Assembly: GCA_030693065.1 (NCBI GenBank)
Contig: JAUYBL010000010.1
Span: 1-64,000 of the forward strand
DNA from: Methylococcaceae bacterium
Lineage (GTDB): Bacteria > Pseudomonadota > Gammaproteobacteria > Methylococcales > Methylomonadaceae
DNA: 64,000 bases
Direction of reading: 5' to 3'
The translations under genes and the position numbers were made by a program. Positions within the stretch are counted from its first letter, which is position 1. The number at the start of each line of letters is the position of its first letter. Under the pieces are notes generated by a model. That model saw only the letters and a list, made by a program, of their open reading frames with translations, made no database searches and was not told the DNA's origin. Shown in pieces: positions 8,014-26,200 of this stretch.

Positions 8014-9540
8014 TTACCTGTTTCTGGGGATATAGCGATCATATCGTTCTGGAGGTGGCGCAAGGTCGACGTTATCAGAGTTATCTGAATATACTTTCTT
8101 GGTTTTTTTAACTGCCTTGGGGGGCGCAGCTTGATTCGCTTGCAAAGATGTCTCGCTTGTTAATTGCGCAGCTTTTACTGCAGCAGAACTCCCTACAAGT
8201 TCTGATAATTTCTTCTTTGCATCAACAGATCCTTGTGCAGCGGCCTTTTGAAACCACTCTATTGCCTTAGCTTCATTTTTATCCACTCCTCTACCCAGCG
8301 CATAAGCAGCGCCTAAGCCATTTTGGCCGGTTGCATCGCCTTGTGAGGCCGATTTTTCAAACATCGCCAGCGCTGTCGCATAATCTTGTTTTATACCCGT
8401 GCCATTGAAATACATTCTGCCCAGATAAGCCTGAGCGCGAGCATCACCTTTATCTGCCGCATTTTGTAACAGCATCAGTTGGTCTTGTGGGATTGTTGCG
8501 GGCAAAGTATCAATTGAAATTTTAAGAAGTGCTGCTAATGAAGTCGTATTTTTTTGTTGCGTTAACAAAGACGGACTCCCCGGAAAATCCACCCATTGCC
8601 GAACAGCAACGCCACTGCCCGCAATTAGCAACACGCCCATCACCACAACTACATGGTAATCCTGACAAAACTTAACAGCTCGATTAGGTATCAGCTTGCG
8701 AATTTCTGGTTTCCGCTTGGACTTTATGTCTTGAATTGCCAAGCAATCACGCAAAGCCACAATAAATTCCTGCGCATCGACAAAGCGCATTTCCGGTTTC
8801 TTCTGCAGCGCTTTCAGCACCAGTTTTTCTAAAGGTGCTGGAATGGACTTGTCGATACTGCGCAAACTTTTCGGTTTGTCTTCGATAACAGCCTTAACCA
8901 AGCCGTATTCAGTATCGTGTTGAAATGGCGTTTGACCCGTCAACATTTCATACAAGACAATCCCGACCGCATAAATATCGGATCGCGCATCGACTTCCTT
9001 ACTTTGATGCTGTTCAGGAGACATATAGCCAGGTGTGCCAATGCTGTGCTTAGTGCGGGCAAGACGGGCTGTTTGCAAAATTCTGGCGATACCAAAATCG
9101 AGCAGCTTGAGGGTGTTTTGGCCATTAACAATGATATTGGCCGGTTTTATATCGCGGTGAATCACATTCGATTGATGCGCATGCGCCAAGCCTTCCAGCA
9201 CCTGGATCCCATACTGTACGGCATCACGCCAAGGCAGGTGACCATGTTGCTGAATAATGCTATCCAGAGTTTCTCCCGGCACAAATTCCATCGCCATGTA
9301 GTATTGATCATCCACACGACCAAAATTGTAGACCGTCGCTATATGGCTATGATTTAAACGCCCCAGCGCAATTGCTTCCGACCTAAAACGTTCGACAATA
9401 TCCTCGCGTCGGCTTAATTCCGGACGTAGCATTTTGATGGCCACTTCCCGCTCCAGCATGGTGTCGATGCCTTTGTAAACCTCACCCATGCCGCCTTCGC
9501 CTATTTTCTCGACGATTTTATAGTTATCGATACGTTCCAT
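8014..9540 (-). CDS. Transmembrane Ser/Thr protein kinase with Sel1 repeats
   Basis: This 508-aa Hanks-type kinase has its catalytic domain at about residues 7-270: glycine loop GEGGMGEVY, lysine in VAIK (36), HRDIKPAN (Asp130), DFG (148-150) and GTPGYMSPE. One membrane segment follows (about 296-313). The outer part has at least two Sel1-like repeats (AQAYLGRMYFNGTGIKQDY, GQNGLGAAYALGRGVDKNE). It sits 3 bp downstream of the PP2C phosphatase gene, so the pair probably adds and removes phosphate on a shared target. The FHA domain two genes upstream in the operon is the obvious candidate reader. Confidence 0.93.
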   Translation of the reverse strand: MERIDNYKIVEKIGEGGMGEVYKGIDTMLEREVAIKMLRPELSRREDIVERFRSEAIALGRLNHSHIATVYNFGRVDDQYYMAMEFVPGETLDSIIQQHGHLPWRDAVQYGIQVLEGLAHAHQSNVIHRDIKPANIIVNGQNTLKLLDFGIARILQTARLARTKHSIGTPGYMSPEQHQSKEVDARSDIYAVGIVLYEMLTGQTPFQHDTEYGLVKAVIEDKPKSLRSIDKSIPAPLEKLVLKALQKKPEMRFVDAQEFIVALRDCLAIQDIKSKRKPEIRKLIPNRAVKFCQDYHVVVVMGVLLIAGSGVAVRQWVDFPGSPSLLTQQKNTTSLAALLKISIDTLPATIPQDQLMLLQNAADKGDARAQAYLGRMYFNGTGIKQDYATALAMFEKSASQGDATGQNGLGAAYALGRGVDKNEAKAIEWFQKAAAQGSVDAKKKLSELVGSSAAVKAAQLTSETSLQANQAAPPKAVKKTKKVYSDNSDNVDLAPPPERYDRYIPRNR

Positions 9541-9543
9541 TTT

Positions 9544-10380
9544 TTATGCCCGTGTGATCGGAATGTTTTTAGCAGACGTGGTTGATTGCAGCACTTTTAC
9601 AACCAGTACGGAAATGTTGTCGTGCCCGCCGCGGGAGTTTGCCAGCTGTATCAGCAGCTCACAGGCTTTCTGGGCGGTATGCTCGACCAGTGCTTGCTGC
9701 ATTTCAGTGGAGTTGATCAGATCATGCAAACCATCGGAACAAAGCAAAAAACAATCACCGATTTTGATTGGCAGCGGCTTATTGGAGCTATCCACGTCAA
9801 CATTAGGATATGTGCCAATCGCTCGAGTAATAACGTTTTTGTCGGGATGGCTAACGGCCGCCTCGGCAGTGATTAAGCCTTGCTTCAACATTTCAGCGAC
9901 GACAGTGTGATCCTTGGATAACTGACGACATTCCCCTGCCCTAAGCAAATACAAACGACTGTCGCCGACGAAAGCATAGCAAGCCACGCCCTGAGTAATC
10001 GCTAAACTCACCAGCGTCGTGCCCATGCCTTGCAGTGCAGCAGAACCTTGCGCTTGGTTATAAATAGCGCTATTAACCCTGTTGAAATAGCGTTTTAATT
10101 CCTTAGCGCTAAGCACATGTTGCTCACCATTACCGTAGTCTTGCAAAATCAGCTCCACCGCCAACCGACTCGCCACTTCGCCGCCCTGATGCCCGCCCAT
10201 GCCATCAGCAACAATAGCCAGTACCGTCTTGTTATCAGCAGACTTGCTATAACCTACCTGATCCTGATTGCTATCGCGCTGCCTGCCCACATCCGAGAGC
10301 GCACCAATTTCCAGGCAATACTCATCAAGCGCTTGTTGGGCAAATACACTTTGCACAAGCTGCTGCCAAAAATATGTCAT
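9544..10380 (-). CDS. PP2C-family protein phosphatase
   Basis: This 278-aa metal-dependent Ser/Thr phosphatase shows the PP2C motifs in order: DVGRQRDSNQDQ, VADGMGGHQGGEVAS, FVGDSRLYLLR, LLCSDGLHDL and GGHDNISVLVV. The aspartates for the metal pair are present. No membrane segment was seen, so it should be cytoplasmic. It is 8 bp downstream of the FHA/protease gene and 3 bp upstream of the kinase, an arrangement seen in PpkA/PppA/Fha phospho-switches. It likely reverses the kinase. Confidence 0.94.
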   Translation of the reverse strand: MTYFWQQLVQSVFAQQALDEYCLEIGALSDVGRQRDSNQDQVGYSKSADNKTVLAIVADGMGGHQGGEVASRLAVELILQDYGNGEQHVLSAKELKRYFNRVNSAIYNQAQGSAALQGMGTTLVSLAITQGVACYAFVGDSRLYLLRAGECRQLSKDHTVVAEMLKQGLITAEAAVSHPDKNVITRAIGTYPNVDVDSSNKPLPIKIGDCFLLCSDGLHDLINSTEMQQALVEHTAQKACELLIQLANSRGGHDNISVLVVKVLQSTTSAKNIPITRA

Positions 10381-10388
10381 CAGCCGGC

Positions 10389-12533
10389 CTATTTAATTGC
10401 CGTGATGTCCATCAACTCGCGGCCATATTTGATAGGTACCGCAAAACTGATTTGAATACCCGATTGGTCGGACATCCCGTAAGTAAATAAGCCTATTACC
10501 TGGCCTTTATCGTTAAACACCGGACCGCCGCTGTTACCGCTGCCGGTCGCATTTACGGTTAATTGATAGACATTGCCCATGCTGCTGAACAGCTCACTGA
10601 CTGATGCCGAGTCGGCTTTGTCGGCAGCGCTAAGCACTTTGCCGATATTGCCGGTAGTTACCGTTAGCGCCGGTACACTGCGTATTTCACCATCGCCACC
10701 GGGATCTTGCGCTTTCATTTTTGCGACAATTTCAGGTGAAATGCCGGGGTAACCCATGACGGTGATGCTATCGCCGGGAGACACCGCTGCATCGGTATTG
10801 AGCTGAACCGGCTGCAAAGTTTGAGGTAAGTCGATTTTAATCATCGCGACATCAGCCACATCAGAGACCCTTACTAAATGTGCGGGGATTCTTAGGCCGG
10901 TATTGGGGAACGTGACTTCCAGATAATCATTACGGCCCTCAACAATTTTGCCGTACAAAGGTTTTTGACCAAGCATTTTGGTTTTTGAAGGAATCCATTG
11001 ATTCAACGAGGCGAGATAGGCGCTGTTGGTTTTCTCATCGAAAACTTTATATTCCGGTTTGGAACAAGCCGCATCATTACAATCCACCAAAATACCCGGC
11101 AGTTGAAAATTACGGCTTTGCGCATGCCAATTGGCCGCAACATGCCGGTTAGTCAAAATAAAACCATTTTCATGAGCGACAAAACCCGAGCCTCTATGTG
11201 AACTACCAATAGCAATGCCGTTGCTTGCATCAATATCCAGAAAAGGCTCAACCACGCCATTATGCTGAATATACCAAGGCATCTTTGGCGTAATGCATTT
11301 GCCTTGTTTTACAAAACATTCGTTGCGTTGAAACACCTGTTTGCCGGTCGCGGTATGTATTAATTTCCAGCTGGCTTCAATCAATACGCTGCTATTGCCG
11401 TATTGTTTGAAAATGTCCGCGGCTGATAAGACTGGATTTTCTTTATTCTGCGGCGGCGGTAATGGTTGAGATTGAGCGACTAACTGTGGGGCTGGTTGTG
11501 TTTCGATACTGTTTTGATAACCGGAATAAGCCAGTATCAAACACACACCACCCAAAACTCCTGCACCAATATTGATAACTTTCTTGCGTGTCGCGCTTTC
11601 AGACGCAGTGATCATGGCTTCTACTGTGTCTTTTGAAGGCGCGGCATGAATAACGCGCGTTGCCGGAGCGTTATTTTCTACGATTCTGGTAAGTTTTAAC
11701 GGTTTAGGATCCAGGTCGAAGATAAATTGCGGCCCACCTTTGCCCAATTGGACTTTATCGCCAACACTAAGTTCGGTAGTTGAGGAGATTTTACTGTTAT
11801 TGACAAACGTGCCATTGCGGCTGCCTAAGTCAGTTAATAGAAACTGTTTGCCGTCTTTAACGTCTATTTTGCAATGGATTCTACTGACCAAGTCATCTTG
11901 TTCCGGATCAAAAATCACCTGGCAAACATCATCACGCCCAAAATTTATTTCAGTATCAGACACCTCTATTATTTCTGTTTGATTAGCTTTTGAACCTAAC
12001 TGGTGGTTTAGTATTATTTTTTGCATGGCTAAAGTGTTGTTGGTTGAATAGAAAGGTATTAATAACTCAAGGTTTTCTAAAATATCGCTTAACTGGCTGA
12101 CCGCAATAACATCGACGCCTGTTTCAGCCAACCTGGCAATTACCGGGAGATTGTTAACCGGCCGCTCCATGCCATCGACGTCTATATAGTTATTCGAGAT
12201 AAAAAATAGGCCTTTTTTATCTCCCAACTGGCCGGATTGTTTTTGCTCTAAAACAAATTGCAGTTTTTCAGGTAGCTTAGCGACAGCCTCAATCGTAATG
12301 TTATTGCCTACTCCGCCCAACGCAGCGGAAGCAATAATATCTAGTTCACCAACTCTATCGCGCAACAACAGTGCTAATGCCAGCCCAAGTTCAGCGCTAC
12401 TACCTTCGCATTTTCCCGAGCAATACAGACGTTGGTTATTCAACCAATCAACGTCCCGGCCTTGCTCGGCCAGTAGCCTACGGACGGAGTCAATGGCTCT
12501 AAATCCGGTTGCAGACAGACCCAATACTTGCAA
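10389..12533 (-). CDS. Lon-like domain + FHA + transmembrane + trypsin-like protease
   Basis: This 714-aa multidomain protein opens with a domain (1-160) that resembles the Lon/S16 proteolytic fold: GSSAELGLALALLL around Ser46 and LPEKLQFVLE around Lys90. An FHA phospho-threonine reader follows (about 187-270; GRDD, SRIHC, LGSRNGTFVNN). A membrane segment is near 319-339. A trypsin-like domain has the triad His464 (TNRHV), Asp561 (DVADVAMI) and Ser668 (GSGNSGGP), placing the protease outside the cytoplasmic membrane. The start is uncertain: TTG at 12533 has no clear ribosome site, and a TGA lies in frame 24 bp upstream. It heads the operon with phosphatase and kinase. A 14-bp repeat lies 46 bp upstream. 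Confidence 0.8.
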   Translation of the reverse strand: MQVLGLSATGFRAIDSVRRLLAEQGRDVDWLNNQRLYCSGKCEGSSAELGLALALLLRDRVGELDIIASAALGGVGNNITIEAVAKLPEKLQFVLEQKQSGQLGDKKGLFFISNNYIDVDGMERPVNNLPVIARLAETGVDVIAVSQLSDILENLELLIPFYSTNNTLAMQKIILNHQLGSKANQTEIIEVSDTEINFGRDDVCQVIFDPEQDDLVSRIHCKIDVKDGKQFLLTDLGSRNGTFVNNSKISSTTELSVGDKVQLGKGGPQFIFDLDPKPLKLTRIVENNAPATRVIHAAPSKDTVEAMITASESATRKKVINIGAGVLGGVCLILAYSGYQNSIETQPAPQLVAQSQPLPPPQNKENPVLSAADIFKQYGNSSVLIEASWKLIHTATGKQVFQRNECFVKQGKCITPKMPWYIQHNGVVEPFLDIDASNGIAIGSSHRGSGFVAHENGFILTNRHVAANWHAQSRNFQLPGILVDCNDAACSKPEYKVFDEKTNSAYLASLNQWIPSKTKMLGQKPLYGKIVEGRNDYLEVTFPNTGLRIPAHLVRVSDVADVAMIKIDLPQTLQPVQLNTDAAVSPGDSITVMGYPGISPEIVAKMKAQDPGGDGEIRSVPALTVTTGNIGKVLSAADKADSASVSELFSSMGNVYQLTVNATGSGNSGGPVFNDKGQVIGLFTYGMSDQSGIQISFAVPIKYGRELMDITAIK

Positions 12534-12578
12534 AGTATCGCTAATTGACGATCAGCGTAACTGCTGGCAATTAATGAT

Positions 12579-12592
12579 TCGAGATAGAAAAT
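12579..12592 (-). repeat. Shared 14-bp upstream element, copy 1
   Basis: The sequence TCGAGATAGAAAAT (plus strand) is identical at 12579, 19879 and 20844. Read on the minus strand, it lies 46 bp upstream of the FHA/protease start. It may be an operator or part of a promoter, or the core of a short repeat. Copies 1 and 3 share a further AC-CTG just beyond. Confidence 0.55.
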
Positions 12593-12706
12593 AACTCTGA
12601 AGCGAGATGACACTGCTGTTTGGTGTTTTAAATACTGTTTTTCCTGCGAAACCAAGAAGCGCGGTCTACTGATCAGCATGACTACTGGAAAGGCTTTGTG
12701 GATTAG

Positions 12707-13018
12707 TTATTTTTGCCAAGTTTTTTCACAACGCTTGCAATAGTAAGAAGCCTTTGCATTATCCGGCCTTGAACTAAAAACACTGTATTTCCAGCTTTTG
12801 CAGCTCGGGCAAGTACGGGCCTTGTTAACGATAAAGTAAAAAGGCACTGTCAACACGCAGATAATGATTGTGTAGATAAATAACGCAAATAGATCTCGAA
12901 AAAAACTGATGAGAATTGCTATTCCGATCAGCATAGGCAACACCATTAAATGATGCAGCACTAAGTCGTTGTATTTATTAGCTATATTTAAAAGGTATTT
13001 CACTAGATTTTGTTTCAT
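12707..13018 (-). CDS. Small membrane protein with C-terminal zinc ribbon
   Basis: This 103-aa protein starts at MKQNLVKYLL. AAGGAG seven bases upstream fixes this start over a longer frame from 13087. Two adjacent hydrophobic segments (about 24-40 and 45-63) are followed by CPSC and CKRC pairs, a probable zinc ribbon. It starts 78 bp after the RHS protein on the same strand, the position where RHS immunity proteins are usually found. An immunity role is therefore possible but unproven. Confidence 0.6.
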   Translation of the reverse strand: MKQNLVKYLLNIANKYNDLVLHHLMVLPMLIGIAILISFFRDLFALFIYTIIICVLTVPFYFIVNKARTCPSCKSWKYSVFSSRPDNAKASYYCKRCEKTWQK

Positions 13019-13044
13019 CAAAAGTCTCCTTATCGTTGAATTTG

Positions 13045-13077
13045 GTAAGTCGGGCATAAAAATCATGCCCGACCTAC
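13045..13077. repeat. Short palindromic intergenic repeat
   Basis: GTAAGTCGGGCAT at 13045-13057 pairs with ATGCCCGACCTAC at 13065-13077 with one mismatch, around a 7-nt loop. It sits between the RHS gene and the small membrane gene. It is REP-like and could also weaken transcription from one gene into the next. Confidence 0.6.
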
Positions 13078-13095
13078 ATGACTGCAAGACTATTT

Positions 13096-15882
13096 TTAGC
13101 GTCTAAAGTTTGGATACGGTAGCGGGAGAGGTTTGGAAGATGTAAACCTGTTGTACCCCCCAGGATCGTTATTATTCCAATCTTGAGTCCAAGGAACCAC
13201 TGTTGAGTAGGTATATCCATCAATTGGTACTCGAGTAAACATATCTGTTTCCCTTCCCGTCATTCCTGATACAAACGTCCTTCCGTCGTTAGGGTAACCA
13301 ACGAATTTATTTGCGCCGAACACAGGATTTGTTCCCAATTCATCAGCAACAAGTTGAGCGTAAGATGCCCCACCACTTTTTGTGGCTGAGCCAACGTTAC
13401 ATCCCGATAATTGAACCATTGAACTTGGTCGATATTGTGGCAATGCTCGAATCATATCGGCCATTTTTTTAGGCGTAATGATATTTCCTTGTGCATCTTC
13501 CATGCCCCAAGGCGCGCCATGTCCAGCGACAGTAATAACGTTCCAATTTGACTGCATCCTAGAAGCACCCGGATAAATCCCGTTTGTTTGATTAGGAAGA
13601 ATAATATTTGCAGCGAGTCCTAATGGATCGAATGAACTAACCGGATTCCCCCCCACATACCCATAAGTATTCAATCCGCCATTCAAACCAATCGGATCGC
13701 TCTGAATATAACGCCCAATCGCCGGGTCGTAATCCCTGAAGCCGTTGTAATGCAGGCCGGTGGATTGGTCGAAATACTGGCCTGGAAAACGCAGGTTGTA
13801 GCTAAAGGCTTTGCCGTCTTGATCCGGGTCTTCATTCGCTAAGGTGGCACCAAATGCCTCGCTATCCCAACGCCAGACTACTTTACCTAGCTCATCCGCA
13901 ATCGTTCTGGGGGCGTTGAGATGGTCGGCATAAACAAAGTAATTTTTAGCTTCAACCATTACCGCCACCGGCATATCGCCTAACCAAACGGTTTCTTGGA
14001 TAGGTGTGCCCTGTTGGTTGTATTCGCCGATTAAATGCCCTGCTTCGTCATAGACAAAGTAAGTGCCGGATTGGACATATTTGCTCGGATTAATACGCAT
14101 GTCAGCCATTTTGGTTTGGGTGCATGCGGCATCGGCGGCGGTGATTTTATTGTCATGATTACAATCAGCAGCGAGATTAACCGGCGCACTGCCCTGAGTC
14201 ATCAACACGATCAAACGCAGATCGGTGGCATTCAACGTGCCGTCCTGATTAGCATCGCCTGATCTATCGACAGTACTGCCTTTGACTTTGCCAACACGTT
14301 GTCCCAAGCCATTAATCAGATACTGTTCCGCTCCAAAACCGCCGGAAGCCTTAATCAAGCGACCTCTATCGTCATACGTGAAGCTGTTGGCGCCATCGCT
14401 GATGACATTACCGGCATCGTCATAGCGGTAGTTTTTTGCCGGTGCGGCATTTTTGCTAATACCCAATAAGCGATTGCTCTCAGTATCCAGCGTAAAAGCC
14501 TCAGTATTACCTCCCGCGGTCTTATTGGTGCGATTACCGTTGGCATCATAGCTGTAGTCGATTTGTGTGCTTGGCGTACTAAAGCCGATCAGCCGACTTA
14601 ACGCATCGTAAGTGAAGTTTTGATCATGGTTCATGTCGGTATCTTGATACCCAGTGATTTGACCCGCCGCATCAATATTCAATTGCCGCGAACGATCACC
14701 CAGATCATAGGCGATCATGCGTCCATCTAAATTAAACTCACGCGTAGTTTTAATGCCGTTACCAAACAGCCAATCCGCAGGCAATCCAAACGGTTGATAA
14801 TGAATTCCGCTGACTAATATTTTGCCATTAGCATCTAACGCCGTTACTAAGCCATTTGTGTAAGTCAGCTGCACTACTTTCCCGGATGGGTAAGTCATGG
14901 CAGTTAAGCGACCACTGCCATCGTAAGCGTAGCGCGTGATAAGGCTGAGCGGCCCGACGCTGAAGGTTTTGCTGGTAACACGACCATGGCTGTCATACGT
15001 CCAGCGCGTACCTCCGGAGGTATCGCCCATTTGCGTTAGATGTCCGATGCCATTAGCGCCTTGATCGTAAAAAAAGCTTATCGATTGATCACCGTAGTGC
15101 AGCGTCTTGGCACGATTAAGCGCGTCATAATTGAAATCGCCTTGCTTACCTCGCGCATCAATGTTCGATATTTTGTTACCGGCACTATCAAAACTGCTTT
15201 GGCTGGTGCCGGTATCGGGGCTAGTGATAGCCAGTTGATTACCGAATCCATCGTAACTGTATTGCGTTTTGTGAGTTAACGGATCAGTTACCGACAGCAG
15301 ATTGTCATTGGCATCGTAAGTGGTTTGAGTGCTTGTTCCGGCGGCATCGACACTTTTTGCCAAGCGGTTGAGTGCGTCATAACTCCAGGAGATTTTGTTA
15401 TTCAGTGGATTGGTTAAGGCAACCGGATTGTCGTTGTCGTCATAAAAATAAGCAGCCGTTTGACCTTCTGCACCCACCATAGTCGCTAGACGATTCAGGC
15501 TATCAAAGGTATTGCTCAAGGTTTGCGTCAATTTTGCTTCGGGATCATAAACCGACTGCTTAAGGCGATTGCCGTTAGCATCCAGCGTGTAGTCGATGTG
15601 ATTACCTGATTGATCGGTAATTTTTAGTAAACGATGTGCAGCATCATAACTAAAGGCAACAACACTGCCGTCCGGAGCAATGGTTTTGGTGACTTGGCCT
15701 ACCGCATCATAGGTGTATTTAGTCACTTCATTACCCACTTGCTTAGAGAGCAAGCGGCCACGCGCATCATAAGCCAATTTGCTCACCAATCCGTTGGCAT
15801 CCTTAACACTTAACGGCAAGCCATTAGCGTCATAAGCGGTAATCTGCGTAACATGTCCTAACGCGTCGGTAATAGACTGCAA
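13096..15882 (-). CDS. RHS/YD-repeat protein, 5'-truncated, with caspase-fold-like C-terminal tip
   Basis: The frame is open from 15954 to 13096 (about 950 codons), but only a TTG at 15882 could serve as a start. The usual N-terminal region is absent, so this looks like an RHS cassette cut at its 5' end. Many YD repeats (YDANGL, YDARGRLL, YDAVGQV) fill most of the length. The RHS core end reads RFPGQYFDQSTGLHYNGFRDYDPAIGRYIQSDPIGLNGG (shown here only as family hallmark positions near 13690-13800). The variable tip after DPLGL has VAGHG (His codon 13519-13521) and LSGCNVG (Cys 13399-13401), a His-Gly/Cys pattern of clan CD peptidases. A dockerin-like insert lies at about 14080-14275. Confidence 0.75.
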   Translation of the reverse strand: MQSITDALGHVTQITAYDANGLPLSVKDANGLVSKLAYDARGRLLSKQVGNEVTKYTYDAVGQVTKTIAPDGSVVAFSYDAAHRLLKITDQSGNHIDYTLDANGNRLKQSVYDPEAKLTQTLSNTFDSLNRLATMVGAEGQTAAYFYDDNDNPVALTNPLNNKISWSYDALNRLAKSVDAAGTSTQTTYDANDNLLSVTDPLTHKTQYSYDGFGNQLAITSPDTGTSQSSFDSAGNKISNIDARGKQGDFNYDALNRAKTLHYGDQSISFFYDQGANGIGHLTQMGDTSGGTRWTYDSHGRVTSKTFSVGPLSLITRYAYDGSGRLTAMTYPSGKVVQLTYTNGLVTALDANGKILVSGIHYQPFGLPADWLFGNGIKTTREFNLDGRMIAYDLGDRSRQLNIDAAGQITGYQDTDMNHDQNFTYDALSRLIGFSTPSTQIDYSYDANGNRTNKTAGGNTEAFTLDTESNRLLGISKNAAPAKNYRYDDAGNVISDGANSFTYDDRGRLIKASGGFGAEQYLINGLGQRVGKVKGSTVDRSGDANQDGTLNATDLRLIVLMTQGSAPVNLAADCNHDNKITAADAACTQTKMADMRINPSKYVQSGTYFVYDEAGHLIGEYNQQGTPIQETVWLGDMPVAVMVEAKNYFVYADHLNAPRTIADELGKVVWRWDSEAFGATLANEDPDQDGKAFSYNLRFPGQYFDQSTGLHYNGFRDYDPAIGRYIQSDPIGLNGGLNTYGYVGGNPVSSFDPLGLAANIILPNQTNGIYPGASRMQSNWNVITVAGHGAPWGMEDAQGNIITPKKMADMIRALPQYRPSSMVQLSGCNVGSATKSGGASYAQLVADELGTNPVFGANKFVGYPNDGRTFVSGMTGRETDMFTRVPIDGYTYSTVVPWTQDWNNNDPGGYNRFTSSKPLPLPYPNFRR

Positions 15883-15962: not shown

Positions 15963-16330
15963 CAGGTATTCTCCTCTTGCAGTTGGCCCAAAAAATCGAC
16001 TGGGGTCAACACCGGCAGTCGAAAATGGCTGGCGGGAACAAAATCAGCAGTATTCAAGGTGACCAGCACTTCGGCACGGCCGTTTAATGCGGTTTCCAGT
16101 ACCATCTCATCAGCTGGGTCACGTAAATGTGGTCACCAAAGGTAATGCAGGTTTACGGGTTCAATAAATAACGACAGTGCGTCCAGGAAGGCATAAGTCG
16201 TGGTCGCAGTACGTCCGCTGACAGCTAGTTATTCCGGGCGCTTCAGCACGGCTTCGTATTCCAGCATCAGCGGTGCTGACGCCAGTGCTGTAAATTGACC
16301 GTTTTTATAGTACCAATACAGGGCAATAGC
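15962..16330 (-). pseudogene. PIN-domain toxin, decayed
   Basis: One frame reads as the body and end of a PIN-family toxin (an RNase of type II toxin-antitoxin systems): FTALASAPLMLEYEAVLKRPE, FLDALSLFIEPVNLHYLW, LRDPADEMVLETALNGRAEV, LVTLNTADF. Two in-frame stops break it, TAA at 16229-16231 and TGA at 16133-16135, each one base from a likely sense codon (CAA, CGA). A third stop at 16331-16333 marks the lost N-terminal part. The DNTNVLVSAL-type start is not found upstream. It is followed at once by the antitoxin remnant. Confidence 0.75.
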
Positions 16331-16546: not shown

Positions 16547-16972
16547 TCAATTAAAAATTATTTTACCGCTAGATTGGCATTGTAAGATTGCAGCGTTCCA
16601 TTCCACACCGTCAGTCATCCTTTGCTTGAAGCAGCTGATGCGTTCATCGGCATTGCTGGTGCCTGCGCACAAACTAACAGCATTTTTCCACTCCCACTTA
16701 TCATTGCTACCCCACTTGACATTACCGGTCATAACTTTGTGAAAACACTCCCCTGGCTCTTTAGGAGCGCTGGTGCCTTTACACAAGGTTTCGATGTTAG
16801 CAGAATCCCAATGGTTTTGACCGTCATAATTCCAGGATATTTTGTCTTGAACATGCTTGGAACATGCAACTTCGTGCTCATCGGCCAAAACATTTTGACT
16901 TATCGGAACAACCAAAAATAACCCTAACAAAGATAGATTCTTTACTAATTTCTTTGAATGTATAGTGCGCAT
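16547..16972 (-). CDS. Secreted protein with three Cys/Trp repeats, unknown function
   Basis: This 141-aa protein has a signal peptide (about residues 1-30, ending SQNVLADEH). The mature part consists of about three tandem repeats of ~38 aa. Each has a Cys near the start, a Trp in the middle (KISWNYDG, NVKWGSND, GVEWNAAI), an A-x-LC pattern (ANIETLCKGT, AVSLCAGT, AAILQC), and a spacer. Cysteines probably form disulfides in the periplasm. I do not recognise the family. It stands alone between the toxin remnant and the three-gene operon. Confidence 0.65.
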   Translation of the reverse strand: MRTIHSKKLVKNLSLLGLFLVVPISQNVLADEHEVACSKHVQDKISWNYDGQNHWDSANIETLCKGTSAPKEPGECFHKVMTGNVKWGSNDKWEWKNAVSLCAGTSNADERISCFKQRMTDGVEWNAAILQCQSSGKIIFN

Positions 16973-17235: not shown

Positions 17236-17763
17236 TCACAGCCACAAGACCTCAGCAACACTGCCACACTGAAAAGGCCTGATGTTTACCGCCTTCAACT
17301 GTTGTATTGCATCGTGAGTTAACTTGGTTTCAGTCGATAAAATCAACGGCACTTGGTATTCCTGCCAACCTAGCGCTATGACAGCGGCCAGCTTTTGCGG
17401 CCAATAACCGGTGTCTGTTAACGGAAAATCAGGGCTATTGGCTATGTTGGCAGACACGATTAAACGCTGGTAATTACAACTAGCCCGGCCGATTAAGCTA
17501 ATTAGCAATAGCCCCAGTGCCGCGCTTTCCGGGTTGGTAATGGGGGGCTGGGAGTTAGCGCAATAAATTGTGCTAACCCCCGTGTTCAAACGAAATTCCT
17601 GCAACAGTTGCTTGGCCTTAATAATACCGGACGCTAGGCCTGCGCCTGTTAAGCCTGAAAAAATATCATCGGTTTTCGGCCCTTGCGGTTGCAGATAAAG
17701 CTCTAACATTTCGCCTATGGCTTGCTCTGCTACAAGCAAGGGAATAAACACCTGTTTGATCAT
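17236..17763 (-). CDS. Stand-alone Lon(S16)-like domain protein
   Basis: This 175-aa protein aligns by eye with the N-terminus of the FHA/protease at 10389-12533. GLTGAGLASG matches GLSATGFRAI. PESAALGLLLISL (Ser80) matches GSSAELGLALALL (Ser46). YWPQKLAAVIA (Lys124) matches KLPEKLQFVLE (Lys90). The C-terminus VAEVLWL matches the end of that domain. The order fits the Lon proteolytic domain (DGPSAG, then GGxKEKLLAA), but the first, catalytic Lys is Pro in both, so peptidase activity is doubtful. It is the third gene of an operon, with a 4-bp overlap to the one before. Confidence 0.6.
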   Translation of the reverse strand: MIKQVFIPLLVAEQAIGEMLELYLQPQGPKTDDIFSGLTGAGLASGIIKAKQLLQEFRLNTGVSTIYCANSQPPITNPESAALGLLLISLIGRASCNYQRLIVSANIANSPDFPLTDTGYWPQKLAAVIALGWQEYQVPLILSTETKLTHDAIQQLKAVNIRPFQCGSVAEVLWL

Positions 17764-18278
17764 AAAACGTTGATGATAATACGCGTATCCGGGCTAAAAA
17801 ATAACAGGCTACTATCGGCGTCCACGGCAACTAGCGCTTCGCCTTCTGCCATATCATCCAAGGCGATGTCTACTTTATAGTGCTTGGCCAAGGCATTACA
17901 GGTGATCTGCAACTGCTTATGCGCATACTCTTCTATCGCTAAGCCCAAAGCTTCGGCTTTGACGTGGATTTGTGCTTCGGTTCTGGCAATACTTAAGCGG
18001 AATTTGCTGTCATCGCTTTCCAGGGTAATGTGCTCAATCAGCTTGCCGTCAGAGGCCGCGCGGCGAGTGATGTAGCTAATGGCAATTGGTGTCGCTGCTG
18101 AGTCAATCTCATCCGTCAGTACACGGCTGCACCACTTTTGGATAGATTCATGCGCCAGCCGTTCAGGTAAGGCATCATAAACGGCATCAACCTCTGCCTC
18201 AGTCACTGGCAATTCCCAATCGATATTATTAATGCGACTTTGGGCTACTCGCCACAAGTGTTTGTGCTTATTGGTCAT
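17760..18278 (-). CDS. Unrecognised protein, middle gene of three-gene operon
   Basis: This 172-aa soluble protein has no signal or membrane segment. It is mixed alpha/beta by appearance, with an acidic middle and a strongly hydrophobic C-terminal strand (SSLLFFSPDTRIIINVL). Overlaps of 11 bp with the upstream gene and 4 bp with the downstream gene suggest coupled translation and a shared complex. No family was recognised. Confidence 0.65.
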   Translation of the reverse strand: MTNKHKHLWRVAQSRINNIDWELPVTEAEVDAVYDALPERLAHESIQKWCSRVLTDEIDSAATPIAISYITRRAASDGKLIEHITLESDDSKFRLSIARTEAQIHVKAEALGLAIEEYAHKQLQITCNALAKHYKVDIALDDMAEGEALVAVDADSSLLFFSPDTRIIINVL

Positions 18279-19797
18279 CTTGGTCTCCAGCTAACTGTTT
18301 GGTGATAATTGCGACTAACTCATCGCGCAATCTTATAAGTAATTGTTGATCTGATATGGCCGCGTAACCGAGCTGGGGATGGGCTTTTATGACTTGTTTA
18401 AGATCAGAGTTTTTTAACAAATACAGCGCTTGTTTGCCGTGTAAACCGGCATTTTCAATATCATCATTGATGAATTTCCAGGTGTACTCAGTCACAGGAT
18501 TAAATAATCCTGGATACACATCAGGCAGATTTAATAAGGTTTCCGCATCGTCTTGGTCTAGCGCAGGTTCCGATGCAAATGAGGCTTGCGCACTTTCGCC
18601 AAGGTTGATGGCGTTATAAATATCTTCGGTTTTTTTACAGCTCATATTAATTATGCTGATGAGTTTATTATCGGACTCTGCAATGTTTTCATCATCGTTA
18701 AATACCACAGCGGCTTTTACAAATACCGTATAGAACTGGTAGCACTGCTCAGCTGTTTCAAAGCCCGCATAGGTTTTACTGGGCTTTTTAGCGCCTATTT
18801 TGGGCATGGCTTTTAATTCATTAAATGTTGTTTTAAAGCACGTTGCTTCATCCCATGCCGCCAAGGTTTTAAACGCACTGCGTTCGACTGTCTTAACGTT
18901 TTTGATTAATTTTGCTAGTTGCCGTAACTCTTGATCAGCAAACTTAAGGACGACTTTTTCTTCATCATCGTATTGATGCAGCCATTTTTTAGGGTCCAAT
19001 CCGCAGGAGACTAATAAGCCGTAACGGGCATTTAAAGCATCAATCACGCCTTTTAAACGTTCCGCTGAATTTGGTTCGCCGGTTATTTTGCTGCGTCGCA
19101 AAAAGTCTTGGGGCTTGATAGGTGCAGGAATAGCAGTAAATACATCAGCCAGCGTTAACTCTTCGGGCACATACAGCAAGTTGTCATTAACTGTCAGGCA
19201 ATACGGGCCAAACTCGGCTAATCGACTGGCGGAAACCTTGCTGTAGTTGTCGCCCAGTTTTTTACGTTGTCCGCTTAAACTATCGGCAACCGGCTTAAAA
19301 AACATATCGACGGTATGTTCAGCGCGATTAAAAAATCGCTCGATAGCACTTTGCAGCCAGGCCGCATTCCAGCTTTGCTTTAGATAGCATTCCAGAAGCT
19401 GATGGATAGCGGTTGGCATTCTGCCCAGTCTATTAATTAACTGCGGGCGTTTAATCAATACTTCGTTAACGTAAAACACGGCTTCCGGGTTGACTTTAAA
19501 GGTCTGGCCTCCAGCGGTAATGGTCTTATCACTTTCCTCCCCGTCATGCCGCCAGTTGTTATAAAGCAGGTTGTCCTGATAATTCATTTTTTTGCTGAGT
19601 GTCAGAATGATTGCCAGCCAGATTTTTGTTTCCACAACTTGCCGCCGGTTAACATTGCTGTTGCTACTAAAACTTTGCACATTGCTTGCCGGTTGGGCAA
19701 AGTGAGTATTAATAATCTCGGTGATGTCATCGCTTAAATTACACAGCGCAGTACTTGTTTTTAAGTTATAGCTGCGGGTGTTTGGATTTTTATCCAT
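18268..19797 (-). CDS. Unrecognised 509-aa protein, first gene of three-gene operon
   Basis: This cytoplasmic-looking protein has no signal peptide or membrane segment and is mostly helical by composition (KLAKLIKNVKTVER, ELRQLAKLI). It begins with an N-terminal stretch rich in Ser and Asn. No enzyme motif was found. The start ATG at 19797 has AGGAG about 10 bp upstream. It heads an operon with the 172-aa and Lon-like proteins. A copy of the 14-bp element lies 82 bp upstream. Confidence 0.65.
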   Translation of the reverse strand: MDKNPNTRSYNLKTSTALCNLSDDITEIINTHFAQPASNVQSFSSNSNVNRRQVVETKIWLAIILTLSKKMNYQDNLLYNNWRHDGEESDKTITAGGQTFKVNPEAVFYVNEVLIKRPQLINRLGRMPTAIHQLLECYLKQSWNAAWLQSAIERFFNRAEHTVDMFFKPVADSLSGQRKKLGDNYSKVSASRLAEFGPYCLTVNDNLLYVPEELTLADVFTAIPAPIKPQDFLRRSKITGEPNSAERLKGVIDALNARYGLLVSCGLDPKKWLHQYDDEEKVVLKFADQELRQLAKLIKNVKTVERSAFKTLAAWDEATCFKTTFNELKAMPKIGAKKPSKTYAGFETAEQCYQFYTVFVKAAVVFNDDENIAESDNKLISIINMSCKKTEDIYNAINLGESAQASFASEPALDQDDAETLLNLPDVYPGLFNPVTEYTWKFINDDIENAGLHGKQALYLLKNSDLKQVIKAHPQLGYAAISDQQLLIRLRDELVAIITKQLAGDQDDQ

Positions 19798-20857: not shown

Positions 20858-21040
20858 TACGCTGTCCAGATAGTTTTCGATTATTCGACAAAATCGCTTA
20901 ATAATTTCCTTAGCAACTATTATTCACTAGCTGATTGATATAACCCAGTGCCAGCGCTTAGACTTGGGCTGACAAAATCTGTGCTTCAATCACAATCCCT
21001 TGCACCCTTTTCAATACTCAATCAATTCTTTTGTCTAAAA

Positions 21041-24000
21041 ATGGCTCATCAACCCGACATTATCAGAGCCAAGTGCCTTTGCATCGATATTGAAACCGCT
21101 CGCGACGACCGTTTAAAGCTACGGGAAATCGGTGTCTATCGGCCTGACACCAATACCAGAGCGCACATCCCCGGTAAGGCGAGCAATCTTGTTGCCCAAC
21201 TGGATGCCATCACCGAAGGCGCGGCGTTTGTGCTGGGCCATAATGTCATTGCTTTTGATCAGCCTGCGTTGTTGGTATTGCATTCCGATTTAATGCTGCA
21301 TCGCTTGCCGTTGGTCGATACGCTGGAACTATCGCCGGTCGCTTTTCCGCAAAATCCGTATCACCGCTTGGTCAAAGATTACAAGTTGTGTAGCACAACG
21401 CGTAACGATCCAGTCCGTGATGCTGAACTGGCTTACGAGTTATTTCTGGATCAACGTGAGGCCTTAAGCCAACGGGTCTCAGAACAGCCAAATGAAGCAT
21501 TGTGCCTGCACTTTCTGCTGACACCGGAAAATGGCAAGGGTCTAGCCAATTTCTTTGCCACCTTACGGCGCGCGTTGCGTCCTTCTTTGCCCGAGGCACA
21601 AGCTGCGTGGCAACAAGTAACCGATGGTAAGGTTTGTAAAACAGGACAGCAGCGGGTGCTTAACGATTATCTTGCTAACCCACAATGGCATAAACCTTTG
21701 GCTTATGTGTTGGCTTGGCTGCGGGTATCTGGAGGCAATTCAGTGCTGCCGCCTTGGGTGAGTGCCAATTTTCCGAAAACGCGCGAGTTGATTGCAATTC
21801 TGCGCGATGTGCCGTGCAGCGATCCTGATTGTACTTGGTGCCAAGAACAGCACAATCTACTAGAACTGCTACCTCGCTATTTTCCGGGAATAACCCAATT
21901 TCGGCCAACACCGTCCACTGCCGACGGTAAATCATTGCAGCAAACCATTGTCGAATACGGCTTTGCAGGTACATCAATGCTGGCGATTTTACCGACCGGC
22001 GGCGGCAAATCCTTATGTTTTCAGCTTCCTGCCCTGGCCCGTTATTATCGCAACGGCAGTCTGACGGTAATTATTTCGCCGTTGCAATCGTTAATGAAGG
22101 ATCAGGTTGATAATCTGGAAGCGCGCGGCATCACCTGTGCAGGTTATCTCAACAGCCTACTCAATCCGCTGGAAAGACGCGTGATGCTGGACAAGTTGCG
22201 ACTGGGCGATTTGGGGTTGATCTTCGTTGCGCCGGAACAATTTCGCAGTACCGCTTTTACCAAAGCGCTTCAGCACCGAGAAATCGGCGCTTGGGTCTTT
22301 GACGAAGCGCATTGTTTGTCAAAATGGGGACACGATTTTCGCCCCGATTATTTATATGTGTCGAATTTCATCAAGAACCGACAAAAGAATAAGCCATCGC
22401 CAGTATTTTGTTTTACCGCCACCGCCAAACCGGATGTGGTAGAGGACATTGTCGAGCATTTTCATAAGCGTTTGGGTATCACCTTAGAATCTTTGTCCGG
22501 TGGCGTTCGCCGCGAGAATTTGCTTTACGAAGTCCATGCGGTACCTGCACAAGCAAAATATCCGGAAGTGCTGCGTTTACTAGAACACTCTTTGCGCGAC
22601 GAAGGCGGCGCCATCATATTTTGTGCCCGCCAGAAAACCGTGGAGGAAATGGCCGAGTTTTTAAAACAGGCAGGACTTGATTGCGGCTATTTTCATGGCG
22701 GTATGCCGCCGGAACAAAAGCGCCAAATGCAGGAAGCGTTTATTGCTGGTGAGTTGCGCGTTATCGCGGCGACCAATGCCTTTGGTATGGGCGTCGATAA
22801 AGCCGATGTGCGTTTAGTGGTGCATTTAGATACGCCGGGCTCGCTGGAAAACTATCTGCAAGAAGCGGGGCGCGCCGGACGCGACCAAGACCCAGCACGT
22901 TGCGTATTGCTTTATGACGATGCCGATCTGGATGTACAGTTTCGTTTGTTGCGCAATTCCCGGCTGACTCAGCACGACATTTACGCCATTTTAAAAGCGC
23001 TGCGCAGCATCGAGAAAAAAGACCGCAGCGAAGGTTCGGTGGTAGTCACAAGCGGCGAAATTCTGTTAGAAATTCCCGATAAACACGGCATTGATCCTGA
23101 TGCTAACGATGCTGATACCAAAGTCCGTATCGCCGTGGCTTGGCTGGAAGAAGCCCGTTTACTGGAACGCCAGGAAAATCATACCCGTTTATTTCCGGGC
23201 AGTTTACAGGTTGCCAGTATCGATGAAGCCAGAGCCTTCTTGGAGAAAAAATTAGGGACGAATAACGACATCGAGCCTTACATCACCCTGCTCTCGCAAT
23301 TGTTCTACAGCGAAGATGACGAAGGCATTAGTACCGATGATTTGATGCTGGCCACTGGTCGTAATTCCCTTGAAGTACAGAACATGTTACGCGATTTGGA
23401 CCGATTCAAACTGGTGTCAAACGACACTGAAATCGGCGTGACCTTATACCGTGATCCCGACACCACGGACCGACTGGAAGCTTTACGCAAATTGGAGGAT
23501 GCGTTAATCGCCAGTTTGCGCGAGGCTGCACCTGATGCCGATCAAGAACAATGGCAAATACTCAACGTTCGGCGGCTCTGCGATACCTTGCGCCGAGATG
23601 CCGGCGTTGAACTGGAACCCGACAAGTTGTCGCGACTACTGAAATCGTTTGCCGAGGCCTTTGGCGGTGGTACCGGTCAGCGCGGTTTTTTCGCGTTGCG
23701 CCCAGCCGGACAAGATAATCGCTACCTAAAATTACAACGTAGCTGGCTAGACATCGACATCATCCGCCACAAACGCATGCGGCTGGCACAGGCCCTGGTC
23801 AATTATTTTGTTACGCACCGGCAAGGCAATAATCTGCTGGTTACCTGTAAACAAGGCGATTTAGAAGCCGCCTTGCAAGCTGATTTGACCTTGCAAGATC
23901 TGGATGTGCGCGACTGGAATGTAGCGTTGGCGGCGGCATTGATTTATTTGGACACCAACGAAGTATTACATTTGGCGCGCGGCAAAGCGGTATTTCGTGC

Positions 24001-26200
24001 TGCGATGAGTATCCAGCTCAATGCCGACGCCAGACGCAGGCAATTCAAAAAATCCGATTACGCCGAGCTTGCTCTGCACTACAAAGACAAGATTATCCAG
24101 GTGCATGTGATGGCGGAATATGCTCGCTTGGCGCTGAGCAAGATTCAAGCGGCAATGGCGTTTATCGTCGATTATTTCGGCATGGACAGAGACGAGTTTG
24201 TGCATCGCTACTTCGCTGGTCGCCAGGATATTCTGGAAATGGCTACTACCGAGGTCGCGCATCGCCGCATTCTGACCGATCTACAAAACCCGGAACAACA
24301 AGCCATCGTGGCTGCGCCGCTGGAAGGCAGTCACTTGGTATTGGCAGGTCCTGGTTCAGGTAAAACCAAAATCATCGTGCATCGCGTCGCCTGGTTACTG
24401 CGTGAATGTATGGTGCCGCCGGAAGACATTATGGTGCTGTGCTACAACCGCTCGGCAACTATAGAAATTCGACGACGCTTATGGGCATTGGTCGGTGCCG
24501 ATGCTGCTGGCGTGACGGTGCAAACTCTGCATGGATTGGCATTGCGATTAACCGGCACCAGTTATGTAGTTGCCGCCGAACGCGGCGAAAGCGTCGACTT
24601 TTCAGAGGTAATTAAAACCGCCACAGCACAATTGAGAAAATCCGACCTCGGTGACGACATCGGCCCGGCTACTCAACGCGACCGTTTATTATCCGGCTTG
24701 CGCTATCTGCTGGTCGATGAATATCAGGATATCAACGCCGAACATTACGATCTGATTAGCGCATTGGCCGGACGTTCGCTAAATAGTGAGGAAGACAAGT
24801 TGTCATTGCTGGCAGTGGGTGATGACGATCAAAATATTTATGCTTTTGGCGGTGCTAATGTCCGTTTTATCAAACAGTTCAGCCACGATTATCAGGCCAA
24901 CACTTATTATCTAATCGAGAATTACCGCTCGACGACAAATATCATCAACTGCGCCAATCGAGTTATCGCTCCAGCACGGGAGCGCATGAAAACCGAACAC
25001 GCGATTAGAATCAATCATGCCCGACGCAACGTCGCGGATGGCGGCGATTTTACCGCATTGGACAGTTTGGCTCAAGGGCGAGTCCATATCATCGAATCAC
25101 CACCGCACATCTCCAGTGAGGTCCAAATCGCGCTCGCCGAGCTATCGAGACTGAATGCTTTGGAAAATTCAGGTCAACCAAGTCAATGGGGACGCTGCGC
25201 GGTAATTGCCAGACATTGGGATGCACTGGAACCGATGGCGGCATTATGTCGGCAACAAGGTATTCCGATGAAGCTAATGCGAGAAAAATCCCAACACAAT
25301 TTATACAACACGCGGGAAGGTCATCACCTACTGACACTGTTAAATAATCAGCGCCACAAAGCTCGGAAACTTCGAATCCTGTTACGCTGGGGATCGCTGT
25401 CACGTTGGTTCAGGGGCTGCTATGGACAAAGTGTTACCGATCTAATCAAGCACCCGTATCGTGCAATGTTGGCGCAATTTATTATCGAACTTGAGTCTGC
25501 GACACCGGGCAGCCAGCTAGTAATCACAGATGTGATCGACGCATTGTATGAATTTGGTTCCGGCTGCCAAGCTGCGGCTAGCGATAATCGTCATGCTCCG
25601 ATGTCGTTACTAACAGCACACAGCGCCAAAGGCTTGGAGTTCGATCATGTGCTGATTTTGGACGCGGGCGGCTGGCAGCAGAACAATGATGATGAGCGGC
25701 GCTTGTTTTATGTCGCAATGACCCGCGCCCGTAAAACGTTAACCTTATGCTCAAGGTTAGGCGGGCGACATGCATTTATCCGTGATTGCGAAGATCTCTG
25801 TCTTAAATCGCAACCCAATCTTAATTTAGAAAATAGCCAGTTGAATCAACGTATTTTAATCACTGACCAAGCCGATGTTGTGCTGTCATGGCCCGGCTAT
25901 TTTGCGCCGGATAAGCCTATTCATAAAGCCATAGCAAACCTGGAGTACGCTAATAAATTGATCTTACGCGTCAGAAGTGATGGTCAATCGGGTTGGGAAA
26001 TTGCCGATGCAAACGGTGTAACAGTAACAAGAATGGCGCAGGCATTTCAGCCGCCCAAAGGCGAAATCATCGCAGTGCAAGTTGCAGCGATTCTGGTAAG
26101 ACAAGCAAAACAAGGAAATTTAGAAAAATTGCGTTGCGCGAATTGGGAGCTGGTGTTGCCGGAGATTGTTTATTTGCCGGGCACGGCGGATGCTGGATAA
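21041..26200 (+). CDS. Exonuclease-RecQ-UvrD triple fusion helicase
   Basis: This giant 1719-aa protein has three parts. Residues about 8-170 are a DnaQ-like 3'-5' exonuclease (CIDIETARD, LGHNVIAFD, VRDAELAYELF). A RecQ helicase follows (PTGGGKSLCF near 318, VFDEAHCLSKWGHDFRP near 420, FTATAKPDV, QEAGRAGRD). A UvrD/Rep-type superfamily 1 helicase ends it (AGPGSGKT near 1104, VDEYQD near 1226, GDDDQNIYAFGGA, ENYRSTTNI, TAHSAKGLEFDHV, FYVAMTRARKT). It probably acts in DNA repair or defence. ATG 21041 is preferred because the exonuclease begins just after it; a GTG at 20948 is possible. A terminator follows. Confidence 0.9.
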   Translation: MAHQPDIIRAKCLCIDIETARDDRLKLREIGVYRPDTNTRAHIPGKASNLVAQLDAITEGAAFVLGHNVIAFDQPALLVLHSDLMLHRLPLVDTLELSPVAFPQNPYHRLVKDYKLCSTTRNDPVRDAELAYELFLDQREALSQRVSEQPNEALCLHFLLTPENGKGLANFFATLRRALRPSLPEAQAAWQQVTDGKVCKTGQQRVLNDYLANPQWHKPLAYVLAWLRVSGGNSVLPPWVSANFPKTRELIAILRDVPCSDPDCTWCQEQHNLLELLPRYFPGITQFRPTPSTADGKSLQQTIVEYGFAGTSMLAILPTGGGKSLCFQLPALARYYRNGSLTVIISPLQSLMKDQVDNLEARGITCAGYLNSLLNPLERRVMLDKLRLGDLGLIFVAPEQFRSTAFTKALQHREIGAWVFDEAHCLSKWGHDFRPDYLYVSNFIKNRQKNKPSPVFCFTATAKPDVVEDIVEHFHKRLGITLESLSGGVRRENLLYEVHAVPAQAKYPEVLRLLEHSLRDEGGAIIFCARQKTVEEMAEFLKQAGLDCGYFHGGMPPEQKRQMQEAFIAGELRVIAATNAFGMGVDKADVRLVVHLDTPGSLENYLQEAGRAGRDQDPARCVLLYDDADLDVQFRLLRNSRLTQHDIYAILKALRSIEKKDRSEGSVVVTSGEILLEIPDKHGIDPDANDADTKVRIAVAWLEEARLLERQENHTRLFPGSLQVASIDEARAFLEKKLGTNNDIEPYITLLSQLFYSEDDEGISTDDLMLATGRNSLEVQNMLRDLDRFKLVSNDTEIGVTLYRDPDTTDRLEALRKLEDALIASLREAAPDADQEQWQILNVRRLCDTLRRDAGVELEPDKLSRLLKSFAEAFGGGTGQRGFFALRPAGQDNRYLKLQRSWLDIDIIRHKRMRLAQALVNYFVTHRQGNNLLVTCKQGDLEAALQADLTLQDLDVRDWNVALAAALIYLDTNEVLHLARGKAVFRAAMSIQLNADARRRQFKKSDYAELALHYKDKIIQVHVMAEYARLALSKIQAAMAFIVDYFGMDRDEFVHRYFAGRQDILEMATTEVAHRRILTDLQNPEQQAIVAAPLEGSHLVLAGPGSGKTKIIVHRVAWLLRECMVPPEDIMVLCYNRSATIEIRRRLWALVGADAAGVTVQTLHGLALRLTGTSYVVAAERGESVDFSEVIKTATAQLRKSDLGDDIGPATQRDRLLSGLRYLLVDEYQDINAEHYDLISALAGRSLNSEEDKLSLLAVGDDDQNIYAFGGANVRFIKQFSHDYQANTYYLIENYRSTTNIINCANRVIAPARERMKTEHAIRINHARRNVADGGDFTALDSLAQGRVHIIESPPHISSEVQIALAELSRLNALENSGQPSQWGRCAVIARHWDALEPMAALCRQQGIPMKLMREKSQHNLYNTREGHHLLTLLNNQRHKARKLRILLRWGSLSRWFRGCYGQSVTDLIKHPYRAMLAQFIIELESATPGSQLVITDVIDALYEFGSGCQAAASDNRHAPMSLLTAHSAKGLEFDHVLILDAGGWQQNNDDERRLFYVAMTRARKTLTLCSRLGGRHAFIRDCEDLCLKSQPNLNLENSQLNQRILITDQADVVLSWPGYFAPDKPIHKAIANLEYANKLILRVRSDGQSGWEIADANGVTVTRMAQAFQPPKGEIIAVQVAAILVRQAKQGNLEKLRCANWELVLPEIVYLPGTADAG

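Follow-up and report, generated by a model that had tools for sequence, protein, structure and literature searches.

In this study, which was based on profile comparisons, structure prediction and genome scans starting from a 64,000-nucleotide stretch of contig JAUYBL010000010.1 of a Methylococcaceae bacterium (the window), we found that a small stand-alone protein, C, and the N-terminal domain of a multidomain protein, D, belong to two families whose common Lon-like (S16) proteolytic fold can be regarded as settled by the agreement of sequence profiles with predicted structures. The Ser-Lys dyad is complete in the D family, and the residues at the same positions in the C family fit a decaying, mostly pseudopeptidase copy. 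Both genes lie in a cassette, A-B-C-D(-E), which is rare and apparently undescribed, and which is carried by methane-oxidising and purple sulfur bacteria. The features concerned are collected in Table 1. The open reading frame that a sequence-only reading had picked out at 17236-17763 does exist; it lies on the minus strand, and the plus-strand frame over the same interval is riddled with stops. Genes A, B and C of the window are intact open reading frames, and those of B and C overlap by 4 nt (ATGA).

Table 1. Coordinates of the cassette and of its adjoining genes (window positions unless another locus is named)
Feature	Position	Strand	Details or basis
C, stand-alone Lon-like (S16-fold) protein	17236..17763	minus	ORF, 175 aa
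C dyad-position residues	S80 codon 17524-17526; K124 codon 17392-17394	minus	
D, Lon-like + FHA + TM + trypsin	10389..12533	minus	714 aa, opens at TTG
D N-terminal Lon-like domain, 5'-truncated	12060..12533	minus	profile and fold search with relative L049
D dyad-position residues	S46 codon 12396-12398; K90 codon 12264-12266	minus	
D FHA domain	11742..11945	minus	PF00498, E 7.7e-19, residues 197-264
D predicted single TM helix	11523..11579	minus	residues 319-337, Kyte-Doolittle scan; RKK precedes
D trypsin/HtrA-like domain (Trypsin_2)	10428..11213	minus	PF13365, E 2.7e-17
D 5'-end deletion junction	12522..12556	minus	blastn, window vs L032
A, 509-aa operon partner	18268..19797	minus	synteny
B, 172-aa operon partner	17760..18278	minus	synteny
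PP2C phosphatase, downstream of D	9544..10380	minus	PF13672, E 4e-17; also in L027, L032
Ser/Thr kinase + Sel1 repeats, downstream of D	8014..9540	minus	PF00069, E 4.6e-59; also in L027, L032
RHS-repeat protein between C and D	13096..15882	minus	PF05593, E 1.5e-62
Cassette of Thiocystis violacea DSM 207 (L050)	A 9758-11332, B 11354-11950, C 11984-12604, D 12604-13968		

The three pairs of segments that had been aligned by eye (GLTGAGLASG/GLSATGFRAI, PESAALGLL/GSSAELGLA and WPQKL/LPEKL) were found in the two proteins in the same order. An alignment of 16 D domains (A1) and one of 11 C proteins (A2), both drawn from Methylococcales relatives, matched each other across approximately 180 columns with an hhalign E of 9.7e-15, compared with values of 0.14-0.86 for unrelated operon proteins that were used as controls, and the resemblance is therefore beyond chance. 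In the maximum-likelihood tree a single branch, with a support of 100/99 and present in all of the bootstrap trees, parted C from D; the two families are separate clades of paralogous Lon-type domains. When A1 was compared with all of the PDB sequences, Lon proteases were the sole matches, with Archaeoglobus fulgidus LonB (1z0e) as the best (E 2.6e-4) and Methanocaldococcus jannaschii Lon (1xhk) as a weak one (E 0.13). Against comparison profiles that were built from sister genomes, A1 reached E 6e-5 for LonA and 5e-5 for the LonB-like profile (hhalign), well below the 0.14-0.86 of the unrelated operon controls. The C profile matched the Lon profiles weakly (E 0.03-0.06, hhalign) and had no Lon match among the PDB sequences; because of this weakness, the placement of C depends on its fold and on its homology to D.

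The AlphaFold2 model of C, which was computed from an alignment of only six sequences, had a pLDDT of 86.5 and a pTM of 0.85, and all 50 of the PDB matches that were listed for it by Foldseek were Lon, RadA or ComM (best E 2e-5, prob 1.00). The D domain of a relative (L049), also modelled from only six sequences, had a pLDDT of 80.5 and a pTM of 0.84; its first 37 Foldseek matches were again Lon, RadA or ComM (best E 2.4e-6, prob 1.00), followed by a viral Ser/Lys-dyad protease at E 0.19 and then by noise. The Lon-like fold that had been proposed for both proteins thus received concordant answers from hhalign, the PDB search with the D profile and structure prediction with Foldseek, and the profile and structure check for an unrelated fold returned both domain families as Lon-like. 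One could still suppose that the by-eye alignment was due to chance and that the fold is an unrelated one, since no useful Pfam match covers the Lon-like part of either window protein (among 27 Lon-like domains none matched Lon_C and one matched ChlI, at E 0.014) and pairwise BLAST of window C against D gave nothing significant (best E 4.5). With profile, structure and motif evidence in concordance and both Foldseek searches refuting it, we give this supposition practically no weight.

With regard to the active site, the serine had been described as kept in both proteins, which is correct (S80 in C and S46 in D), and the catalytic lysine had been described as replaced by proline in both, which is not. 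The catalytic pairs of AfLonB (Ser509/Lys552), E. coli LonA (Ser679/Lys722) and BsLonBA (Ser445/Lys488) have a spacing of 43 (PMC9569914). In the AfLonB sequence, position +43 from the serine is the lysine of GGVTQK; its aligned counterpart in the LonA sequences is the second lysine of GGxKEK. The earlier assignment had taken the first; counting 43 from the serine leads to the second one and not to the position of the proline. In both window proteins the proline sits two residues ahead of the catalytic-position lysine, which is present as K124 and K90, respectively, with a Ser-Lys spacing of 44 in each (S80/K124 and S46/K90). In the comparison of the D profile with AfLonB, the D serine was aligned to Ser509 and the D lysine to that of GGVTQK.

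The two families differed in how this pair was conserved. Serine and lysine were both kept in 19 of the 19 D domains. Six columns of A1 (16 rows) were invariant in all, and the dyad accounted for two of them (the chance that it falls among the invariant columns is 6.5e-4), while the domain was otherwise diverged, with a mean column identity of about 30%. Among the 13 C proteins, both dyad residues were found in two, window C and that of L026; the serine column held seven G, five S and one A, the lysine column seven K, three Q, two S and one L, and C is without the acidic-Gly motif ahead of the serine. The view of a degenerate, non-peptidase module consequently suits the C family and does not suit the D family. 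The same counts bear on our main rival explanation, according to which both domains form a non-catalytic Lon-like ring or scaffold that only oligomerises, with the output residing in the fused trypsin or STAND domains. It draws on the Lon-like domains of RadA and ComM among the nearest folds, on the Lon domain of BrxL, which has no dyad (PMC12839542), on the loss of most dyads from C and on the resemblance of the parts that are fused to D to effectors or sensors; however, a serine and a lysine that are invariant throughout such a diverged D family argue against it, and we consider it somewhat unlikely. It is more doubtful still that C is itself the active peptidase, so that in the window C would be the enzyme and D its decayed partner. 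Window C does retain S80 and K124 at a spacing of 44 and window D is truncated, but the missing acidic-Gly motif and the loss of serine, lysine or both in 11 of the 13 C proteins make such an arrangement improbable.

The modular use of the domain, which occurs both on its own and joined to FHA and trypsin, was borne out, and the relatives added fusions to nSTAND1, ABC_sub_bind-like and Sel1 parts. C, with a length of just 175 aa, has no AAA+ module. In the window, L032 and L027, D has the FHA-TM-trypsin form and adjoins the PP2C and Ser/Thr kinase genes. The D of L026 (1118 aa) carries nSTAND1 and an ABC_sub_bind-like part, that of L033 an ABC_sub_bind-like part below the Pfam cut-off, and a second D of L026 (393 aa) Sel1, while elsewhere D ends in a conserved C-terminal part (~190 aa) of no assigned family. 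A mutual relationship between this part and E was considered and was unsupported (hhalign E 0.62). In the trypsin domain of window D, the His of TNRHVA, the Asp of DVAMIKID and the Ser of GSGNSGGPV could be read directly, and its NCBIfam matches were of the HtrA type, below cut-off. A single TM helix was predicted in most of the D proteins (Kyte-Doolittle), between FHA and trypsin in the FHA-trypsin form; a simple hydropathy scan gave no clear helix after the Lon-like domain in L028, L029, L030, L036 and L101. Based on the RKK that precedes the helix and the positive-inside rule, the Lon-like and FHA domains would lie inside and the trypsin domain outside. None of the scanned D proteins had an AAA+ protease module, the nSTAND1 of one D being a different NTPase, and neither a SAVED or CARF domain in the scanned D proteins nor such a gene among the scanned cassette genes was detected.

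The window copy of D has lost its beginning. Compared with the congeneric L032, to which its DNA is 92% identical, positions 174-642 of L032 (about 470 bp) are gone and 35 bp (12522-12556) stand in their place (blastn), and with them the ATG and the first ~52 codons of the L032 D. Without its start codon and about 50 Lon-like codons, this copy may be non-functional, and the residues 1-160 to which the sequence-only reading had referred are those of a truncated domain.

In the relatives, the genes follow the order A (~400-610 aa), B (~180-215 aa), C and D, mostly then E, a small protein with a signal-peptide-like start, and they frequently overlap by a few bases. This order was kept in Methylococcales, in Thiocystis violacea DSM 207, whose cassette was located by scanning genomes with A, and in a second member of the Thiocystis order (L101). 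The A family carries a YGLLRSCGL-type motif; A, B and C had no curated match in Pfam, NCBIfam, PADLOC or PHROGs, and the A and B profiles had none among the PDB sequences. Fourteen of the 311 Methylococcales genomes scanned carry the cassette, as do three of 195 genomes of the Thiocystis order (Chromatiales), one of these being a remnant; in evenly drawn samples of the class (n = 369) and the phylum (n = 399), the window's own genome was the sole carrier. The cassettes of L040 and L100 are without C, which is thus dispensable in some of them. No description of the cassette was found in the literature searched, a body of papers that took in few behind subscription and no preprints.

Such a rare and patchy distribution could also suggest that the cassette serves in anti-phage defence or in self/non-self conflict, the Lon domain of D acting as a trigger of cell death or of a transcriptional alarm. 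A motor-less Lon domain acts in defence in CalpL, nSTAND1 is fused to one D, and caspase-like genes lie near the Thiocystis copy. However, A, B and C had no PADLOC match, no relatives of D or A turned up on plasmids, none of D on phages and none of A on viral contigs, and the kinase, the phosphatase and the secreted E equally suit envelope or stress signalling; we therefore regard a defence role as rather unlikely.

Several other features of these loci were observed. The RHS gene of the window does not belong to the cassette in the relatives; in L026, L034, L037, L050 and L101 it does not separate C from D. It contains a dockerin-like stretch, a 1.4-kb part of the ORF and the end upstream of it share 94% identity with a copy in the congeneric L033, and the whole gives the impression of a mobile or variable insertion. 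Upstream of it, the remains of a broken PIN-type toxin-like gene were seen by eye (15975-16300, minus), and 16547-16972 (minus) encodes a secreted-looking protein of 141 aa without a Pfam match, in which there are three related repeats, CSKHVQDKISW, CFHKVMTGNVKW and CFKQRMTDGVEW. A 1750-aa ORF at 20948-26200 on the plus strand combines DEAD/Helicase_C (RecQ-like) and UvrD helicase parts (Pfam) with an N-terminus that by eye resembles a DnaQ-type exonuclease. Among the relatives, small secreted-looking E proteins follow D at L037:7057-7551, L030:2947-3435 and L034:2068-2541; pairwise E-values go down to 1e-26 within one group, and the members that were scanned had no family match. An additional gene lies between C and D at L028:4348-5124 and L029:5228-6016, and that of L028 resembles Rpn-type nucleases/transposases, with a TIGR01784 match at E 2.3e-8 that falls below the cut-off. 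Of the C gene, a congeneric genome (G041; L031:8099-8393) retains only broken pieces, with stops and split matches. Near the Thiocystis cassette there are two caspase-domain genes (L050:1613-5953), one of them fused to FGE-sulfatase.

The dyad is invariant in D and decayed in C; together with the TM helix that tethers most D proteins and the swapping of partner modules, this pattern fits a peptidase role for D. From the sequences and by analogy with CalpL, we tentatively propose, at a little less than an even chance, that D is a membrane-anchored, motor-less Lon-type signalling peptidase, that C is its pseudopeptidase partner and that the two work in a CalpL-like manner. D would be a cytoplasmic Ser-Lys peptidase domain, mostly tethered by one TM helix and joined to a variable partner module; C, its soluble and mostly catalytically decayed sister, would probably join or gate the D assembly. 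The partner module would perceive a signal, which in the window may be a phosphopeptide that FHA recognises and that is under the control of the kinase and phosphatase encoded next door. This signal would assemble or unlock the Lon-like domain of D, which could then make a limited cut in a partner. The nearest candidates for that substrate are A or B, which is a guess because neither has a recognisable fold. Against this proposal speak the truncation of window D, the D proteins without a clear TM helix, the two C proteins that have the dyad and the two cassettes that have no C. In a broader interpretation of the same sequences, which we consider possible but put below the previous one, A-B-C-D-E would be a transmembrane signalling system that has so far gone undescribed. 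A Lon-type peptidase that needs no ATP would combine with its sister pseudopeptidase into a regulated, mixed complex at the inner membrane, and the modules for output or sensing would be exchangeable, namely FHA-trypsin under kinase/phosphatase control, STAND or a periplasmic binding-like domain. A membrane-tethered Lon-type peptidase that travels with a decaying sister and with two or three conserved genes of no known family would, if real, give S16 domains a further role in signalling; enzyme and pseudoenzyme would form a natural pair, the cleavage and trigger of which are open to direct tests.

The combination of FHA and trypsin in one chain, as in window D, has a counterpart in the FHA-FHA-Tryp protein NP_811686.1, for which no Lon-like domain is listed; among the S16 architectures considered from that survey there is no FHA fusion (PMC2605481). 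RadA, ComM and BrxL put a Lon-like fold to other uses, as C and D may do, but they are fused to an ATPase or helicase, and BrxL is without the dyad that D has. The Lon proteases of MEROPS family S16, LonA and LonB, are similar to C and D in fold, in the positions of serine and lysine and in their spacing (43 vs 44), and D resembles LonB in its acidic-Gly-x-Ser and ATG/MTG motifs. Unlike C and D, they carry the AAA+ module in their own chain; C is short and stands alone, D is fused to TM and effector parts, and the GG ahead of the catalytic lysine is mostly lost in C/D. Motor-less Lon domains are known from few settings. One is MtaLonC, a Lon-like protease without ATP-powered unfolding (PMC3391209), which is like D in having a Lon peptidase domain without an ATP motor, and whose structure 4fwg was among the structural matches of D; it keeps a large AAA-like N-terminal part that neither C nor D has. 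Another is CalpL, the Lon-SAVED protein of type III CRISPR systems, which cleaves CalpT and is the precedent for a signal-activated Lon domain (PMC12751052). The cassette is set apart from CalpL by description, as no SAVED or CARF domain and no CRISPR gene was seen among its scanned genes, most D proteins have a single TM helix and C is a putative pseudopeptidase partner; it shares with CalpL a motor-less Lon domain with a fused sensor, partner genes alongside and, if our proposal is right, the way of working.
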